From Thioalkalivibrio sp. XN279 (GTDB taxonomy: Bacteria; Pseudomonadota; Gammaproteobacteria; Steroidobacterales; XN24), in contig NZ_JAANBD010000023.1 in assembly GCF_011089885.1 (NCBI RefSeq), forward strand, positions 124,001 to 188,000: a stretch of 64,000 bases of DNA, written 5' to 3'. Below the pieces are notes generated by a model that searched no databases, had not been told where the DNA came from, and saw nothing but the letters and a program-made list of their open reading frames with translations. The position numbers and the translations under genes are program-made. Positions 1,759 through 20,325 of the stretch are shown here, piece after piece. Position 1 is the first letter of the stretch; each line of letters starts with the position of its first letter.

Positions 1759-4758
1759 TTACTGCCCGACACCGAGCTCCAGCTGCAAGAACACCAGGTT
1801 CTCGTCCGCGCGCGGCGCCTCGTCCGGCTCCGCCACCGCGATCCGCGCTGCATCCAGGCCGCCGCTCTCCACCAGGTAGTTGCGTACCGACGCGGCGCGT
1901 TCCATTCCGAGCAGGCGGAACTCCTGCGCCTCGACGGTCTGCAGCTCGAGCAGCGCCGCGCGCAGCGCCTCGATGTAGGCGGTCTCGTCCAGCACCGGCT
2001 TGTCGCTGCCTTCCGGAATCGACGAGTGCTCCGCCTGCAGCGTGGCCGGCGCCTCGGCCCCAGCGGCCTCGGCGTACATCGCTTCCATGATCAGCCGCAC
2101 CGGGTCGCCGTCCTTGCCGCTGCCTTCGCCGGCCTCGAAGCGCGCCGAGATGGCGTCGTCCAGCAGACGCTGGCGGATGGCGCGGCCGTCGCGAGCCTCG
2201 TCGAAGGCGGCGCCGATCTCGAGTTGCAGCTCGGGTCGCTGCACCAGCGCCTCGGCAAGCTTGGACAGGTCCTCCGCCTCGGGTCCGCGCAGGGTCACGT
2301 CGCCGGCGACGAAGCCGACGAATTCGAGGTCCGCTTCCTCCGCACCGCCGCCCAGCAGGGAGGCGAGGAAGCGGAACGGCGCGGTGACGATCTTGCCGAG
2401 CACGTTGCCCAGCGCCCTGAACACCAGCGGCGCATAGCGGAACTGCGGGTCGGTGATGTCGCCGGAGACCGGCACCTCGAGGTCGATGCGGCCCTGCGTG
2501 TCGGTCAACAGCGCGACGGCCAGGTCCAGCGGCAGGCTCATCGCGCCGGGCGAATCGACCTTGTCACCGAGCTTGAGGTCGTTGATCAACATGCGGTTCC
2601 GGGCCTCGAGCTGGCCATCGCGGATGATCCAGCTGAGGTCGACGTCAATCGTGCCCGCGGCAATTTCGCGGCCGGCGAACTTGACCGTGTAGGGCGTGAG
2701 GTCACGCATCTCGATGTTGCGGAAGTCGAGTTCCAGTTCCATCACGCGCGTCGGCTCGAACACGTCGAGCGTGCCGCGGATGGTGGCGGCGCCGTACTCG
2801 TTCACGTCGCCGTCGAACTCGACGCGCGCCGGGGTCGGGCTGCCGGACGTGATGGCCGCGATCGAGCCGCGCATCGGCTGCACCAGTGCGGCGAAGGGGA
2901 TGGGCAGGCTGAGGTCGGTGAAGTCCATGGTGCCGTCCGCGATATCGACCCGCCCGACGCCGACAGCGAAGGGCTCGGCGGCCGCCCCAGCGTCCGGCGC
3001 CTCAGCGTCTGGCGCCCCGGCGTCCGGCGCCCCGGCGTCCGGCGCTGCTTCGCCTGCGGTGCTGCCCGGCGCGATCGCGGTGAGATTCAGGTCGCCGTCC
3101 TCGTTGACCAGTACCTTGAGGAAGGGCTCCGACACCGCCACCTTGCCGATGCGCAGGGCACGCCCCGCCAGCGACAGGTCGATGCCCTCCGCATCCAGCA
3201 CCTGCCAGCCGACCAGCTGCGTTTCTTCGTCCGGCAGCCGGCTTTCGAGCGCGCGCAGCGCCGCCTTGCCGGTGAAGGCGAACGGCTCCTCGTCGCTCAG
3301 CGTGATGCGGCCCGCGGCATCGGCGAGCAGGCTCGCCACCTCGAGATTCATCGCCCCGTCGGTGTAGGGCAGCGCGGGGAGCAGGGACAGTCCCTCGATG
3401 CCGACGTCCAGCCCCACCTGCAGCGGCAAGGCGCGCACCGCGCCGGACACCGCCAGCGTGCCGCCGGAGGCCGCGGCGGCGTTGAGTTCCACGTCGGCGC
3501 GATGGCCGTCGGCGCTGCGGTAGTCGGTGACGGCCAGCACGAGGTCTTCCAGCGCGACCTGCACCGGGCGCGGCGCCATGCGATCCTCGAAGGCCACGCG
3601 GCCGCCGTCGATGCGCAAGGCGCCGAGCCGGATGGCGAGGCCGGACGCCGCTGCCTCACCGTCGCCGCTTTCCGCTTCGGGCCCTTCCGCGTCTTCCGTG
3701 GCCTCTTCCGCGGCGCTCCCCGGCGGCGTCAGCGCCGCCACCAGGTCGATGGTCCCGTCCTCCAGCTGGCGCAGCTCGAGGCCCGGCTGGGAGAGTTCGA
3801 CGCTGCCGACGTCGAGCGTGCCCTGCGCCAGGTCGAACTCGATGCCGTCTGCCGCGGTGCGCGGCAGGGCGAGGAGCGGCGCGCCGGAGCTGCGCTGCGC
3901 CACCTCGAGGCCCGTCAGCGTGGCGCGACCGCGCTGCACCCGTAAGTCCAGCGCCTCGCTGCTGCCGTCCAGCGCGTAGTCGAAGCCCAGGGCCAGGCGT
4001 GCTTCCCCGGTGAAGGCGGCGTCATAGTCGTGGCGCACGTACTCCCAGAACGGCGCCAGCGCCAGGTTGTCCAGCTCGACGCTGCCGGCGGAAGCCAGCG
4101 GATCCACCGCGAAGCTGCCGTTCCAGCGCATCCTGCCGCCGCGTGGGCCGGTGACTTCGAGCGTGTACGCGCCTTCGCCCTCGGGCAGCGTGGCGAAGTG
4201 CTCCATGGCGAAACTGACCGGGCCGAAGGCCAGCGACCAGTTCTCGGGATGCGCCTCGTCGGCGACGGCGAGACGGCCTTCCACCAGCGTGACGTTGTGC
4301 AGCACCAGCCGCGGCGGGGCCGCATCCGGGTCGGGCTCGGCGGGCTCTGCCGGGGGCGGCAGGCGGTCGAACATGCGCTTGAAGTTGACGATGCCGTCGG
4401 CGCCGCGCTGCAGCCGCAGCTGCGGGTGCTCCAGCGCCAGCTCGCCGAAAGTCCAGGCCCGCCGCCAGGCGCTGGAGAGGGAGAAGTCCACCACCAGGCG
4501 GCGGAAGTCCAGCATCGGCCCCGACTCCGGGTCCTCGAGCGACAGTCCCTCGACCGTGAGCTTGAACAGGTAGGGGTTGAAGCGAACCTTCTCGATCGAC
4601 AGGTCGACGCCGAGCCGTTCCTGCGCCAGCTTCGGCGCCTGGTTGTGCGCCAGCCAGGGCAGGAACAGGAAGCCGACGAGGGTGTAGGCGAGCACCGCCG
4701 CCAGCGCCCAGAGTCTCCATCCCTGGAGTTTCATCTTGCTGCGCCAGGCGGCGGTCAT
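1759..4758 (-). CDS. DUF748 (AsmA-like) envelope protein
   Basis: A 999-residue protein with an N-terminal membrane anchor (about residues 13-33, ALAAVLAYTLVGFLF) and a very long periplasmic part. Motifs near the anchor and the repeated VELDNL/DGTIDLV-type beta segments match DUF748, a relative of AsmA-type bridge proteins thought to act in envelope lipid transport. The last 120 residues carry an OmpA-like pattern (RNYLVESGGLDAARI). A mid-protein linker contains tandem APDAG units. The start at 4758 is chosen for a GGGGA nine bases upstream; Met9 has no ribosome site. It starts 16 bases after the rpoD stop, so it is probably cotranscribed with the rpoD operon. Family membership is clear; the cellular role is inferred. 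Confidence 0.8.
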   Translation of the reverse strand: MTAAWRSKMKLQGWRLWALAAVLAYTLVGFLFLPWLAHNQAPKLAQERLGVDLSIEKVRFNPYLFKLTVEGLSLEDPESGPMLDFRRLVVDFSLSSAWRRAWTFGELALEHPQLRLQRGADGIVNFKRMFDRLPPPAEPAEPDPDAAPPRLVLHNVTLVEGRLAVADEAHPENWSLAFGPVSFAMEHFATLPEGEGAYTLEVTGPRGGRMRWNGSFAVDPLASAGSVELDNLALAPFWEYVRHDYDAAFTGEARLALGFDYALDGSSEALDLRVQRGRATLTGLEVAQRSSGAPLLALPRTAADGIEFDLAQGTLDVGSVELSQPGLELRQLEDGTIDLVAALTPPGSAAEEATEDAEGPEAESGDGEAAASGLAIRLGALRIDGGRVAFEDRMAPRPVQVALEDLVLAVTDYRSADGHRADVELNAAAASGGTLAVSGAVRALPLQVGLDVGIEGLSLLPALPYTDGAMNLEVASLLADAAGRITLSDEEPFAFTGKAALRALESRLPDEETQLVGWQVLDAEGIDLSLAGRALRIGKVAVSEPFLKVLVNEDGDLNLTAIAPGSTAGEAAPDAGAPDAGAPDAEAPDAGAAAEPFAVGVGRVDIADGTMDFTDLSLPIPFAALVQPMRGSIAAITSGSPTPARVEFDGDVNEYGAATIRGTLDVFEPTRVMELELDFRNIEMRDLTPYTVKFAGREIAAGTIDVDLSWIIRDGQLEARNRMLINDLKLGDKVDSPGAMSLPLDLAVALLTDTQGRIDLEVPVSGDITDPQFRYAPLVFRALGNVLGKIVTAPFRFLASLLGGGAEEADLEFVGFVAGDVTLRGPEAEDLSKLAEALVQRPELQLEIGAAFDEARDGRAIRQRLLDDAISARFEAGEGSGKDGDPVRLIMEAMYAEAAGAEAPATLQAEHSSIPEGSDKPVLDETAYIEALRAALLELQTVEAQEFRLLGMERAASVRNYLVESGGLDAARIAVAEPDEAPRADENLVFLQLELGVGQ

Positions 4759-15493: not shown

Positions 15494-16726
15494 TCAGCCC
15501 TCGAGGTCGCGCGGGCAGGCGGCGGTGATGGCGGCGATGCGCAGCTCGCGCAGCTTCTCCCCCAGCGCCTCGCCCGCCAGGCCCGACTCGAGCAGCGGGC
15601 CCGGCGCCACGCTCGCTGCAGCCGCCAGCGCCCGGCGCAGCAGCGCGGCCTGCGGATAGGGCGCGTCCTCGAGGCCGGCACGCCCTTTCATGTCGGCCTC
15701 GCAGGCGCCGAGAAACTGCTCGAAGCGCTCCGGCCGGCGCAGGGCGTCGCAACCCTCCAGCAGCCTGAGCACGGTCGCCGGCCTGAGCTCCGCGGCGCGG
15801 TGGCACAAGCCGTGATAGCGCGCCACGATCTGCGCCAGCTCGCGGTATGCAGTGGGCACCTTGAGCCGCGCGCACAGGCGCTTGAGCAGCGTCACGCTGC
15901 GTTCCTCGTGGCCGTGGTGCGCCGGCCAGTACTCGCGCGGCGTGGTGCCCTTGCCCAGGTCGTGGGTGAGCACCGCAAAGCGCGCCTCGGCGTCGAGACC
16001 CAGGCGCGCGGCCGCGCGCAGGCACAGCAGCAGGTGCCGGCCGGTATCCACCTCGGGATGCCAGCGCGCCGGCTGCGGCACGCCGAACAGGGCGTCGAGC
16101 TCCGGGAACACCACCGCCAGCGCGCCGCAGTCGCGCAGCACGCGCACGAACTGGTCCGGGTGCTGCGTCTCCAGCGCGCGGCGCGTCTCCTGCCACACGC
16201 GCTCCGGCACCAGCGCGTCCACCTCGCCGGCCGCCACCATGTCACGCATCAGCGCCAGGGTGTCCTCGGCCACGGTGAAGCCCTGCGCGGCGAAGCGCGC
16301 GGCCAGGCGCGCCGTGCGCAGGATGCGCACCGGGTCCTCGGCGAAGGCGGGCGAGACGTGGCGCAGCAGGCGTGCCTCCAGGTCCGCGCGGCCACCCCAG
16401 GGATCGACCAGGGTGCCGTCGGCGGCGCGCGCCATGGCGTTGATGGTGAGGTCGCGCCGCTGCAGGTCCTCCTCCAGCGTCACCTCCGGCGAAGCGTTCA
16501 CGACGAAGCCGCGGTAGCCCGGCCCCGTCTTGCGCTCGGTGCGCGCCAGGGCGTACTCCTCGCCCGTCTCCGGGTGCAGGAACACCGGGAAGTCGCGTCC
16601 CACCGCCTTGAAACCGGCGCGCTCCATGTCCGCCTGCGTCGCGCCCACCACGACCCAGTCGCGGTCGCCCACCGGGAGGCCCAGCAGTTCATCGCGCACG
16701 GCGCCGCCGACGAGGTAGGTTTCCAT
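15494..16726 (-). CDS. cca: Multifunctional CCA-adding enzyme with HD domain
   Basis: Cca adds or repairs the 3' CCA of tRNAs. The 410-residue protein starts [16 protein letters not shown], carries the catalytic Asp pair in [11 protein letters not shown], the [10 protein letters not shown] helix and the [15 protein letters not shown] segment. Its C-terminal half has an HD phosphohydrolase motif ([11 protein letters not shown]), as in the E. coli-type multifunctional enzyme. The start is fixed by the conserved METYLVGGA. It is preceded directly by TACAAT six bases upstream and no ribosome site, so the mRNA may be leaderless. Confidence 0.96.
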
Positions 16727-16787
16727 GGCGGCATTGTATACGCGGGGTTGGACCGCACAGCATGCCGGGCCGCAGGCCCAGACGCAC

Positions 16788-16866
16788 GCGGCGCCGGACC
16801 GCACACGGCGCCCTTCACTCGGAAGTCTTTATCTCGTTCAGTGCGCCGTGTGCGTTCCGGCGCCGC
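16788..16866 (+). repeat. Hairpin element A of a structured repeat family
   Basis: Two 24-base arms (16788-16811 and 16843-16866) are complementary except for one C/T mismatch at arm position 12. The 31-base centre (16812-16842) contains TCTTTATCTC and a 2-bp/2x2-mismatch ladder. Copies B and C downstream share the architecture although several arm positions differ. It lies between the divergent cca and aminopeptidase genes, upstream of the apparent -10 of each, so it is not obviously part of either mRNA. Confidence 0.85.
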
Positions 16867-16915
16867 TGCCGATGCCCTGCTGCCGGCGCTCTGGGTCCCT
16901 GCTATCTTGACGCGC

Positions 16916-18013
16916 ATGAAGCTTCGCCTTCCCAAGCGGCCGCAGCGCGTCGGCGTCGCACCGTTGCTGTTGCCGATGCTGTTGCTGCTGCTGCCACTGG
17001 CGGGCTGCAGCACTGCGGGGTACTACGCCCAGGCGGTGTCCGGCCATCTCGGGCTCATGGCCGCGCGCGAGCCCATCGACGAGGTCATCGCCGATCCCGC
17101 CACGCCCGCGGCGGTGCGCGAGCGGCTCGAGCTGGCGCAGGCCGCGCGCCGCTTCGCCATCGACGAGCTGGGCCTGCCCGACAACGGCAGCTACACCCGC
17201 TACGTGCAGCTCGACCGTCCCGCCGTGGTCTACAACGTCTACGCCGCGCCCGCCTTCTCGCTCGAGCCGAAGCGCTGGTGCTTCCCGATCGCCGGCTGCG
17301 TCGTCTATCGCGGCTATTTCAAGCGCGCGGACGCCGAGCGCACCGCCGCGCGGCTGGAAGCGGACGGCTGGGACACCTGGGTCGGCGGCGCGTCGGCGTA
17401 CTCCACGCTGGGCCGCTTCGAGGACCCGGTGCTCTCGAGCATGCTGTATCGCGACGACGCCCGCCTGGCCGGCCTGCTGTTCCACGAGCTCGCGCACCAG
17501 CGGCTCTACGTCAAGGACGACTCGGCGTTCAACGAGGCTTTCGCCACCACCGTCGAGGAAGAGGGCGTGCGCCGCTGGCTGCTCGCCACCGGGCGCGAGG
17601 AAGACCTGGCGACATGGCGCGAATCGCGCCGCCGTGCCGCGGCCTTCCAGTTCCTCCTCGCCCGCACCCGCGGCCAGCTGCAGGCGCTGTACGCCTCCGG
17701 CGCCGACGAGCCCGAGATGCGCGCCGGCAAGGCCGCCGCGTTCGCGCAGCTCGAGGCCGAGTACCGCGCGCTCAAGGCCTCGTGGGACGGCTGGACCGGC
17801 TTCGACCGCTGGTTCGAGGCGCCGCTGAACAACGCCCGCCTGATTCCCTCGGCCACCTACCGCGGGCTGGTCCCGGCCTTCCGCCTGCTGCTGGTGGAGG
17901 CCGACGGGGACCTCGAGGCCTTCTATACGGCGGCCGAGCGGCTCGGCAACCTGCCGCAGGCGGAGCGCGACGCCGAGATGCGACGCCTGCTCGCCACGGC
18001 CGCGCAGCGCTGA
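16916..18013 (+). CDS. Putative zinc aminopeptidase lipoprotein (COG4324)
   Basis: A 365-residue predicted metallo-aminopeptidase. A signal peptide ends in the lipobox LAGC (Cys31). The zinc motif HELAH with LYVKDDSAFNEAFAT follows around residues 190-210; the FNEAFA Glu is the likely third ligand. WCFPIAGCVVYRGYF is another family landmark. The substrate is unknown. The ATG at 16916 has no ribosome site but has TATCTT seven bases upstream, consistent with a leaderless transcript. Hairpin element A lies just upstream and elements B and C just downstream. Confidence 0.85.
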   Translation: MKLRLPKRPQRVGVAPLLLPMLLLLLPLAGCSTAGYYAQAVSGHLGLMAAREPIDEVIADPATPAAVRERLELAQAARRFAIDELGLPDNGSYTRYVQLDRPAVVYNVYAAPAFSLEPKRWCFPIAGCVVYRGYFKRADAERTAARLEADGWDTWVGGASAYSTLGRFEDPVLSSMLYRDDARLAGLLFHELAHQRLYVKDDSAFNEAFATTVEEEGVRRWLLATGREEDLATWRESRRRAAAFQFLLARTRGQLQALYASGADEPEMRAGKAAAFAQLEAEYRALKASWDGWTGFDRWFEAPLNNARLIPSATYRGLVPAFRLLLVEADGDLEAFYTAAERLGNLPQAERDAEMRRLLATAAQR

Positions 18014-18051
18014 CCCCGGCTCCATCGCTACCGGTGACCCTGCTCCTGGCC

Positions 18052-18130
18052 GCGGGGCCGGGCCGTGCAAGGCGCCCTTCGTTCGGAAATCTTTATCTCA
18101 CTCAGTGCGCCTTGCACGTCCCGGCCCCGC
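18052..18130 (+). repeat. Hairpin element B of a structured repeat family
   Basis: Arms 18052-18075 and 18107-18130 are complementary at 23 of 24 positions, with a C/T mismatch at arm position 12, the same place as in element A. The 31-base centre matches that of A at 26 of 31 bases; the swapped dinucleotides AC/GT and GT/AC keep their pairing. Outside a further C/T mismatch the stem can continue for four base pairs (TGGC/GCCA). It begins 38 bases after the aminopeptidase stop. Confidence 0.87.
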
Positions 18131-18270
18131 TGCCATGTTTCAGGGGGCGGGGTTCGGTTGCGCACCGGAGTTTCGGGGTCAGGGCCGACGGTTCCGGTCT
18201 GGGAGCGGCGGGCTGGCGGCGGCCTCGGCGGTGCCGTGCGCCAGCGAATCCTTACGCGTGCAACCCAGCA

Positions 18271-18350
18271 GCGGGGCCGGGACGTGCAATGCTCACCGAG
18301 CGATATTGAAATTTTTTGAGCGAGGGGAGCATTGCACGTCCCGGCCCCGC
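18271..18350 (-). repeat. Hairpin element C of a structured repeat family, inverted
   Basis: Arms 18271-18294 and 18327-18350 are perfectly complementary over 24 bases, with a 32-base centre. The outer half of the arms equals that of element B. Read on the minus strand, the centre has the same ladder as A and B: an edge C/T mismatch, 2 bp, a 2x2 TC/CT mismatch, 2 bp, a 2x2 TC/CT mismatch. The base pairs themselves differ (CC/GG and GC/GC). It ends ten bases from the slt stop codon. Confidence 0.87.
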
Positions 18351-18360
18351 GGTCAGGTCT

Positions 18361-20325
18361 TCAAGGCGAAGGGTCCCGGTGCGGTCGCGGCGGCACCGGC
18401 TGCATGACGTCGGCCAGGCGCGCCGTCTGCCCGGTCATGCGCCAGTGGAACACCGCCTCGGCCGCCAGCACCCGCTGCACGTAGGCGCGGGTCTCGCTGT
18501 AGGGCACCGAGTCGACCCAGGCGTCGGCCGGCAGGGCGGCGTTTTCCGGCAGCCAGCGGTCGACGCGGCTTGGCCCGGCGTTGTAGGCGGCCGTGGCGAG
18601 CACGCGGTGGCCGTCGTAACGCGCCAGCATGTCGGCCAGGTAGGTGGTGCCGAGGGTGATGTTGGTGTCGGGGTCGATGAGCGTCGGGCTGCCGTTCCAG
18701 GGCAGGCCCGCGCGGCGCGCCAGCTGGCGCCCGGTGGCCGGCATGAGCTGCATCAGCCCGAGGGCGCCGGCGCTGGAGCGGGCGTCGGGTACGAACAGGC
18801 TTTCGCTGCGCGCCACGCCGTACACCCATGCGCTGTGGATGCCGGCGCGCTGGCTGCGTTCTTCGAACAGCGGCCGCCAGGCCAGCGGGAAGCGCAGCTC
18901 GAGGGCGTCGTGCGCGGCGGCGCTGCTGGCCGCGGTGATGGCGCGCGAGTACCAGCCCCAGCGTTGCGCGATGATGGCTGCCTGGGTGCGCTCGTCCGGG
19001 GACATGCGCGCCAGCGCCTGCTGCCACTCGAGACGGCCGTAGGACTCGAGGCCGACGTGGAACAGCTCGCGGCTGCGGATGATGTCCGGGCGCTGCTCGA
19101 GCGTGGCGATCACTTCGTCGCGGGCCGGCACCGGGTCGGCGCTCCAGCGGTAGTCGGCGCCGAGCCGGTCGGCGGCCATGAAGCTGTAATAGCCGCGCTC
19201 GCCGGCGAGGGAGGCGTAGACCATGCGCGCCTGGTCGCTGCGGCCGGTGGCCTCGAGCATGCGCGCCAGCCAGTAGCGCCATACGGGTTCTCCTGCTGCG
19301 TCGGCGGACAGCGCCGCGAGGGCGTGCTCCACCGCGGCCCAGTGCTGCTGGCGCAGCGCCACGCGCACGGCCCAGGCCCGCGTGTCTGCATCCCGGCTCG
19401 CCTCGGGCAGTGCCTCGAGCAGCCTGGCCGCCTCGGGCAGGTGCCGCCAGGCATGGACCAGGGCAATGCGGCGGTCGATCGCGGCCTGCTCGCCGGGCGT
19501 GAAGGCGAAGTGCTCGCGGAACGCCGGCCAGTGTTCGGCGGCGATATCGGGGTGCGTGGAGGCCATGCGGCGGAAGCCGTACAGGACCAGGGCGCGCTGG
19601 CGCGGGTCGTCGCGCCGGCCGGAAGGCGTGCGCAGGCGGCCGACCGGGTCGTCGTGCACTGCCTGCCAGCGCGTCACCTCGGCCAGCGCGGCGTCGCCCA
19701 GCGGTCGCGCCAGCCAGCGCGCGAGGCGGAACTCCCCGGCCTCCAGCGCCAGTTCCATGCGGGCGCGTCGCGTGGCGTCGTCGATGCCGTCGCGGGCGGC
19801 GAACCATGCGAAGGCCGGATCACAGGCATCGGGCTGGCTGGTGGGGGCCGTCCAGCGCGCGCGCACCGCGTCCTCCAGGCCCTCGCTGCGTCCCAGCGCG
19901 ATGCGCGCGGTGAAGGCATGGCACTCGAGCACCGTGTCGCGGGTGCCGGCGTAATGCGCCTCGTACAGCGCCAGGTAGTCGCGCCAGGCCTTGCGCCGTG
20001 CCAGCGAGGCCGCCCACTGGCGTCGCAACGCCGGTGCGAAGCCGAGCTCTGCATGCGCGGCGAGGAACTGCGCGACCTCGGCGTCGGGCACCTGCCCGAG
20101 GCGGCTGCGCAGCCAGGCGGCGCGCAGGTCGGGCAGCAGGGGATAGCCGTCGAGCTCGGCCAGCCGCGCGTCCACCCCGGCCCATTGCCCGGCCTCCGCC
20201 AGCGGCAGGACGGCGCGGAACACCTCCCGCTGGGCTTCCAGCCTGGCGTCGGAAGCCATGTTCGCGCTCGCGGGCGTGCCGGCGCTGAGCAGCGCCAGCA
20301 GGATGAGCAGGCCGATGTGGGGCAT
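18361..20325 (-). CDS. slt: Soluble lytic murein transglycosylase
   Basis: A periplasmic enzyme that cleaves peptidoglycan glycan strands to 1,6-anhydro ends. It is 654 residues long, close to E. coli Slt70, with a signal peptide (MPHIGLLILLALLSAGTPASA), a long helical superhelix domain and a C-terminal catalytic SLT domain. The catalytic Glu is in VARSESLFVPDARS, followed by GLMQLMPATG and AAYNAGPSRV. A GGGAG site lies about ten bases before the ATG. It diverges from the TauE/SafE gene. Confidence 0.94.
   Translation of the reverse strand: MPHIGLLILLALLSAGTPASANMASDARLEAQREVFRAVLPLAEAGQWAGVDARLAELDGYPLLPDLRAAWLRSRLGQVPDAEVAQFLAAHAELGFAPALRRQWAASLARRKAWRDYLALYEAHYAGTRDTVLECHAFTARIALGRSEGLEDAVRARWTAPTSQPDACDPAFAWFAARDGIDDATRRARMELALEAGEFRLARWLARPLGDAALAEVTRWQAVHDDPVGRLRTPSGRRDDPRQRALVLYGFRRMASTHPDIAAEHWPAFREHFAFTPGEQAAIDRRIALVHAWRHLPEAARLLEALPEASRDADTRAWAVRVALRQQHWAAVEHALAALSADAAGEPVWRYWLARMLEATGRSDQARMVYASLAGERGYYSFMAADRLGADYRWSADPVPARDEVIATLEQRPDIIRSRELFHVGLESYGRLEWQQALARMSPDERTQAAIIAQRWGWYSRAITAASSAAAHDALELRFPLAWRPLFEERSQRAGIHSAWVYGVARSESLFVPDARSSAGALGLMQLMPATGRQLARRAGLPWNGSPTLIDPDTNITLGTTYLADMLARYDGHRVLATAAYNAGPSRVDRWLPENAALPADAWVDSVPYSETRAYVQRVLAAEAVFHWRMTGQTARLADVMQPVPPRPHRDPSP

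Follow-up and report, generated by a model that had tools for sequence, protein, structure and literature searches.

What kind of element are the long imperfect palindromes of this locus, and in which molecule and on which strand do they fold? The window, that is the whole 64,000 nt stretch of Thioalkalivibrio sp. XN279 DNA that was analysed, contains three of them, designated A, B and C. Hairpin A (16788-16866) is a single copy between the divergent genes for a cca-like protein (15494-16726, minus strand; PolyA_pol head, RNA-binding and HD domains) and a putative aminopeptidase (PF10023; 16916-18013, plus strand). Hairpins B (18052-18130) and C (18271-18350), with conserved feet and a spacer (18139-18262) that is partially similar to the spacers of sites L052 and L056 of the same genome, form a composite element without a strand of its own (18044-18358). 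The strand that folds with G.U and G.A pairs is the minus strand in A and B and the plus strand in C; A and B have the same orientation and C is inverted. B adjoins the stop codon of the aminopeptidase gene, 31 nt before the composite element, and C that of the soluble lytic transglycosylase gene slt (SLT and SLT_L; 18361-20325, minus strand; stop codon 18363-18361), 2 nt after it, the inverted pair filling the 347-nt gap between the two stops.

The hairpins of the window have a length of 79-80 nt, with a stem of about 24 bp per arm, and lie where the preliminary description had placed them. Most of its details were recovered: the five differences between the arms of A and B are present in the 5' arm, both have a C/T mismatch at arm position 12, and the loop-edge mismatch and two 2x2 TC/CT blocks occur in all three. 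The C/T mismatches that it ascribed to all three are found as such in A and B, but in the inverted hairpin C they are C/T only on the minus strand. Folding z-scores range from -6.95 to -10.08, on either strand, and none of 200 dinucleotide shuffles folded as well.

Extent of the family

A blastn search of the 3.1 Mb XN279 genome (G000) with hairpin A gave 13 places, one being A itself read backwards. A covariance model was made from 14 copies, in which 22 of 24 predicted pairs had already changed on both sides; it scores A, B and C with E-values of 3.3e-24, 3e-21 and 4.6e-21, matches that hold by construction since all three were training copies. The rest of the window has no match to it with an E-value below 0.1, save for the opposite strand of A, B and C themselves. 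The first model gave 63 rows in the genome, some of which are one place on both strands, and 51 hairpins in 27 loci were counted upon removal of one coding false hit. A second model added one place, C28:688366.

Further copies in relatives, by which the preliminary description was to be judged, exist in two other genomes of the genus (G001 and G002) and not in 36 other relatives, the first model having matched three of 39 genomes. With the second model three of the seven genomes of the taxonomic family match, again in the genus alone, and in a class sample one of 369 genomes matches, XN279 itself under stricter filters; since at most 108 or 150 candidates per genome were scored, and at most 12 in the class search, diverged forms elsewhere may have escaped. 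In named genomes an exact 22-mer gave no matches and a degenerate 25-mer a single stretch, of Thioalkalivibrio sp. XN8. This stretch contains 125 of 133 non-overlapping 60-mers from one G001 stretch that overlaps it, so that G001 represents XN8 or a nearly identical strain.

The preliminary description recognised no named family, in agreement with which the window has no match at gathering score in Rfam (release 15); permissive E-values returned sub-threshold matches alone, nearly all microRNA precursors. With the terms used, no description of the hairpin family was found in the open-access literature searched. A phage or plasmid source was rejected, the B-C region matching neither collection, and 51 viral stretches with the short loop pattern were taken as chance, the second model giving two partial matches (E 0.19 and 0.24). 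The family appears to be a genus-restricted, dispersed and apparently non-autonomous hairpin repeat. Contigs begin or stop inside or less than 200 nt from a hairpin in three cases (start of G000:C23, start of G001:C17 and end of G001:C3), where the assemblies look broken at the repeat.

Prior to alignment L069:6126 (the coding false hit), L105:4284 (a fragment), L101:1 (cut by a contig end) and L048:763 (weak, E 0.4) were left out. All 105 remaining copies were used for counts of mismatches by strand and of GA blocks. For comparable columns, 15 copies with short or other loop types, one of them with an inverted core, were removed, resulting in a 90-copy alignment. C28:688366 is in neither alignment.

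Folding on one strand

The strand with the GATAAAGATTTCC loop is the folded strand. From the foot, GCAG or GTAG, it runs through a G+C-rich stem crossed by G.A mismatches to a tandem GA/GA block, inward of which come two G-C pairs and another G.A block, the apical loop being rich in A/U. The 5' foot is GCAG in 61, GTAG in 9 and ACAG in 4 of 90 copies. The preliminary description had both 2x2 blocks in every copy, which holds for the three hairpins of the window and not for the family as a whole: the first is GA/GA on the folded strand in 91 of 105 copies, the inner one in 48, another 46 having GG/AA.

Stem cells are paired for 96.9% in the 90 copies, compared with 65.1% in shuffles and 35.9-44.5% in slid structures. 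Each of the 21 stem pairs has changed on both sides; two-sided changes are found in 545 cells, where shuffles give 146.4 +/- 9.0, and the covariation score is 0.823, against 0.209 +/- 0.010. These values bear out the original proposal that selection acts on a folded molecule, either RNA or single-stranded DNA.

The palindrome might nevertheless act as duplex DNA or as a cruciform, for instance as a site for gyrase or a nucleoid protein, or the identity of the arms might be a by-product of template switching. Most copies do have near-perfect arms, and these change in concert, but in duplex or cruciform both strands are equivalent whereas the mismatches are strongly biased. On the strand with the GGAAATCTTTATCTC loop, the 105 copies have 146 A.C/C.A versus 7 G.T/T.G mismatches, 134 C.T/T.C versus 3 A.G/G.A and 72 C.C versus 6 G.G, such that on the folded strand most stem mismatches become G.U wobbles and G.A pairs. 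The tandem GA/GA that had been pointed out on this opposite strand is hence strengthened, the same strand making most other stem mismatches G.U. The 72 C.C count against, as they correspond to G.G on the folded strand and are unpaired there too. With positions of recurrent mismatch excluded, the A.C to G.T ratio on the reverse strand is 80:5, or 68:5 as distinct events, collapsing those with the same position and 7-bp context; per genome it is 19:2, 33:3 and 28:0 (p < 3e-4 each). Predicted RNA energy is lower on the folded strand in 87 of 90 copies. The first model treated G.T as a pair on the C.T-rich strand, so that the bias of the search ran counter to this outcome. As for template switching, self-correction would erase the first GA/GA block, which is kept in the great majority of copies.

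Recent changes point to the same strand. Among near-identical copies, taken within one genome from a minimum spanning tree and at most 12% apart, 31 single transitions are kept as G.U and 4 break a pair (p = 3.5e-6), with ratios of 14:2, 12:1 and 5:1 in G000, G001 and G002. The kept transitions comprise 20 GC/GU and 11 AU/GU changes and, as both kinds are seen, are not explained by deamination of C on one strand alone. Of the double changes 13 keep pairing and one breaks it; 11 single transversions break pairs, which counts against. The biased mismatches together with the 31:4 filter on transitions indicate that one strand, folded as a single strand, is selected rather than duplex or cruciform, and we consider the duplex, cruciform and template-switching readings very improbable.

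One-strand covariation supports a structured element, yet by itself it cannot separate RNA from single-stranded DNA. In RNA a G.U is close to a true pair, whereas in DNA a G.T is much nearer to the other mismatches; a filter of 31:4 in so long a stem is therefore easier to explain in RNA, and harder in DNA. The hairpins are thus kept in one specific folded single-stranded form, which probably is RNA.

Layout, dispersal and possible role

The hairpins form 31 groups in G000, 24 in G001 and 11 in G002. Those of G000 consist of 19 pairs in the order plus then minus, one plus-plus pair and 11 single hairpins. With the three genomes taken together, the order is plus then minus in 35 of 38 multi-hairpin groups and minus then plus in none; the others are one plus-plus, one minus-minus at a contig start and one plus-plus-plus-minus. 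The spacers of paired hairpins measure 32 to 257 nt, and in the same 35 groups the folded strands face outward from the spacer. Base-pairing between the two hairpins of a pair was dropped as an explanation, since hairpins of one pair resemble each other hardly more (mean 0.752, n = 36) than do copies at different G000 sites (0.710).

According to gene calls by an in-house codon-usage script, which are approximate, the G000 groups lie in 23 convergent, 6 codirectional, 1 divergent and 1 undetermined gaps, those of G001 in 16, 5, 1 and 2, and those of G002 in 7, 4, 0 and 0, respectively. In the window, convergent orientation is seen in 9 of 60 pairs of adjacent genes, with gaps below 150 nt in eight cases, the ninth being the B/C gap. 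Since insertion between convergent genes is the least harmful, location alone is no proof of function. In codirectional gaps, three of seven lone hairpins are placed with their folded strand in sense, a lack of bias that counts against a reading as RNA.

Some sites deviate from this layout. At L064:3736-6307 (G000:C29:226235-228806) a DciA (DUF721-like) gene and lpxC enclose two hairpins at a distance of 2.4 kb from each other, and a Fic/DOC-family gene occupies the interval; a transposase was sought there and rejected, the largest open frame coding for the Fic protein. The orthologous hairpin of G001 (L110) is just 184 nt from lpxC. G002 has sites with multiple hairpins (L087:4112-4629 and L085:3683-6703), a part of which have a different loop type that reads ACAAGGAAAAACTC on the reverse strand.

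An element-bearing orthologous region was found in G001 for 22 of the 27 G000 loci, a few being matched by one flank, while the remaining five (L058, L060, L062, L065 and L073) have no match among the element-bearing G001 stretches that were fetched. G001 lacks the hairpin at site A, and in G002 the model found nothing at the aminopeptidase locus. When 35 G000 hairpins were each set against the closest hairpin at the orthologous locus, 30 were closer to another G000 hairpin, even though pairing at the level of loci favours the orthologue; the orthologous hairpin is the best G001 match in nine of the 35. In 18 of 33 pairs the spacer has a match to that of a different site in the same genome, sometimes in reverse; five shuffled sets gave 2-4 pairs with any match. 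This recurrence at unrelated sites shows that the pair is dispersed as a unit, and the greater similarity of stems within a genome that copies evolve in concert, being homogenised or replaced in place, although re-insertion at favoured sites may be an alternative on these sequence comparisons. Twelve hand-picked orthologous hairpin pairs differ by 16 double changes and 10 single changes kept as G.U, with 4 broken. Dispersal of the copies probably predates the divergence of the species in the genus.

At 16740-16759 (unstranded), outside hairpin A, part of its outer 5' arm recurs as a direct repeat identical at 17 of 20 positions; similarly, tandem partial outer-arm copies are seen outside the hairpin at L106 (about four, ~4100-4190, G001:C3) and also at L107, L109 and L075/L084. 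In the second hairpin of L069 (3591-3682) the loop orientation is opposite to that of the feet. The hairpin cores of the orthologous L067:3431-3524 and L114:4005-4097 are opposite, a core flipped in place, and this counts against a reading as RNA.

What could such a unit do? We favour, with a probability of about one half, a REPIN/ERIC-like element that would act as an RNA 3'-end structure, shielding the end of the mRNA and limiting antisense read-through, a role suggested by the sequence patterns. The unit would consist of two hairpins of about 80-95 nt, inverted, with a variable spacer between them. With the folded strands facing outward, each hairpin folds in transcripts that arrive from the spacer side, which in convergent pairs means read-through of the far gene. 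A transcript that overruns the stop codon of a convergent gene would thus meet the near hairpin in its weaker sense; the far one, reached immediately before the opposing gene is entered in antisense, it would read in its folding sense. There the long hairpin could block 3'-5' exonucleases and hinder continued read-through. Transcription of the region, RNA as the folding molecule and the barrier or protective role are what we infer from these patterns.

Ordinary bidirectional intrinsic (Rho-independent) terminators would be sited likewise between convergent stop codons, but a T-rich stretch (5 of 8) in the next 25 nt follows the folded strand in 1 of 90 copies and the other strand in 3 of 90, and a scan of window positions 16600-18500, limited to loops of 3-8, gave no terminator-like sites. 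A U-tract terminator is thereby refuted, and we regard this explanation as exceedingly improbable; factor-dependent termination belongs with the RNA 3'-end structure, against which the missing U-tract and the lack of any direct sign of termination also count. The outward folded strands of the paired groups, and folding specific to one strand, would also suit a small RNA, with the hairpin as all or part of it, that starts at a promoter in the spacer, runs outward and reaches the adjacent gene's 3' end in antisense. A consensus scan of positions 16600-18500 however revealed no sigma-70-like promoter, spacers are strongly diverged, with 15 of 33 matching no other spacer of the same genome, and partnerless single hairpins exist, for which reason a small RNA seems improbable.

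The main alternative, which we consider less likely, is that single-stranded DNA is the form in which the folded strand counts, its structure being recognised by a Y1/HUH-type transposase, as has been proposed for REPINs, with the foot as guide, and the location at stop codons reflecting tolerance. Inverted doublets dispersed in either orientation, with recurring spacers, the GCAG or GTAG foot and the single hairpins without sense bias are as expected for such a substrate, and G001 and G002 each have two Y1_Tnp genes. Yet G000, 99.9% complete and richest in copies, has no match to Y1_Tnp (PF01797) while its stems still filter transitions at 14:2, and the hairpin is absent from all four 3.3-kb Y1_Tnp loci of G001 and G002. 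No transposase for the family was thus found in the three genomes by a search with PF01797 alone. Two Y1_Tnp genes of G001 (C27; L190 and L193) are near short TGGGGACTGTCCC-type palindromes, a different repeat.

The favoured RNA 3'-end structure can be extended, tentatively, to a new class of modules: large inverted hairpins with a tandem G.A core that might mark both ends of a convergent gap and seal or stop both transcripts without U-tracts, perhaps read by a protein. Such modules may have spread as a repeat and then been domesticated genus-wide, their stems drifting by concerted, strand-specific compensation with the core kept.

Comparison with known repeats

REPs, in the passages of PMC3733652 available to us, are 20-40 bp long, carry GTAG or CGTC tags and have stems of 5-13 bp; an excerpt of PMC12306157 gives a size of mostly 20-50 nt. 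The former passages further describe dimers with spacers of mostly 20-100 bp, REPs that in two species lie no more than 20 bp from the 3' end of each of the convergent genes, and CGTC families seemingly without a dedicated transposase. REPINs are presented in part of PMC3116915 as inverted REP doublets tied to RAYTs, with compensatory changes noted, in a study that included Thioalkalivibrio HL-EbGR7. As far as these portions of PMC3733652 and PMC3116915 go, the family resembles REP, REPIN and BIME elements in consisting of interspersed hairpins, often as inverted doublets (35 of the 38 multi-hairpin groups), with variable spacers and heterodimers, in adjoining the 3' ends of convergent genes, 29 of the 31 G000 groups being in convergent or codirectional gaps, and in its compensatory changes; CGTC families likewise lack a dedicated transposase.

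Membership of REP/REPIN is rejected on size, tag and transposase. Hairpins of about 80 nt with stems of about 24 bp exceed the REP dimensions given in the excerpt of PMC3733652, the REP tag GTAG occurs in just 9 of 90 copies as against 61 with GCAG, and no Y1 transposase (RAYT, Y1_Tnp) lies beside a hairpin. The conserved tandem G.A core and A/U-rich loop are also unlike REPs and REPINs, and the spacers, up to 257 nt, are longer than those of REP dimers.

ERIC, according to part of PMC2267715, is a single long stem-loop, whereas other families are double hairpins, and in Yersinia it was reported to act through RNA hairpins. By this description it shares with our family a long, intergenic, multicopy stem-loop, but it is a repeat of enterobacteria, and the present hairpins occur in other taxa, paired, inverted and with a G.A core. 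Bidirectional intrinsic terminators similarly are stable hairpins between convergent genes; here a U-tract is lacking (present in 1 of 90), the stem is much longer and there is a conserved core motif.

The family combines very strong covariation with a folding strand that can be read from the sequence through G.U versus A.C mismatches, a comparison that separates single-strand folding from palindrome or cruciform and is relevant to REP-type repeats generally. If the folding molecule is RNA, it shows a dispersed repeat turning into a two-sided 3'-end signal; if DNA, a REPIN-like lineage with outsized hairpins and a mobiliser yet to be named. The inverted pairs at convergent stops, the dispersal, the concerted evolution and the likeness to REP, REPIN and ERIC went unnoticed in the preliminary description, and in kind the family does have relatives: it is an interspersed hairpin repeat that resembles REP, REPIN and ERIC, larger and with an unusual core, and distinct from them in size, tag and transposase association.
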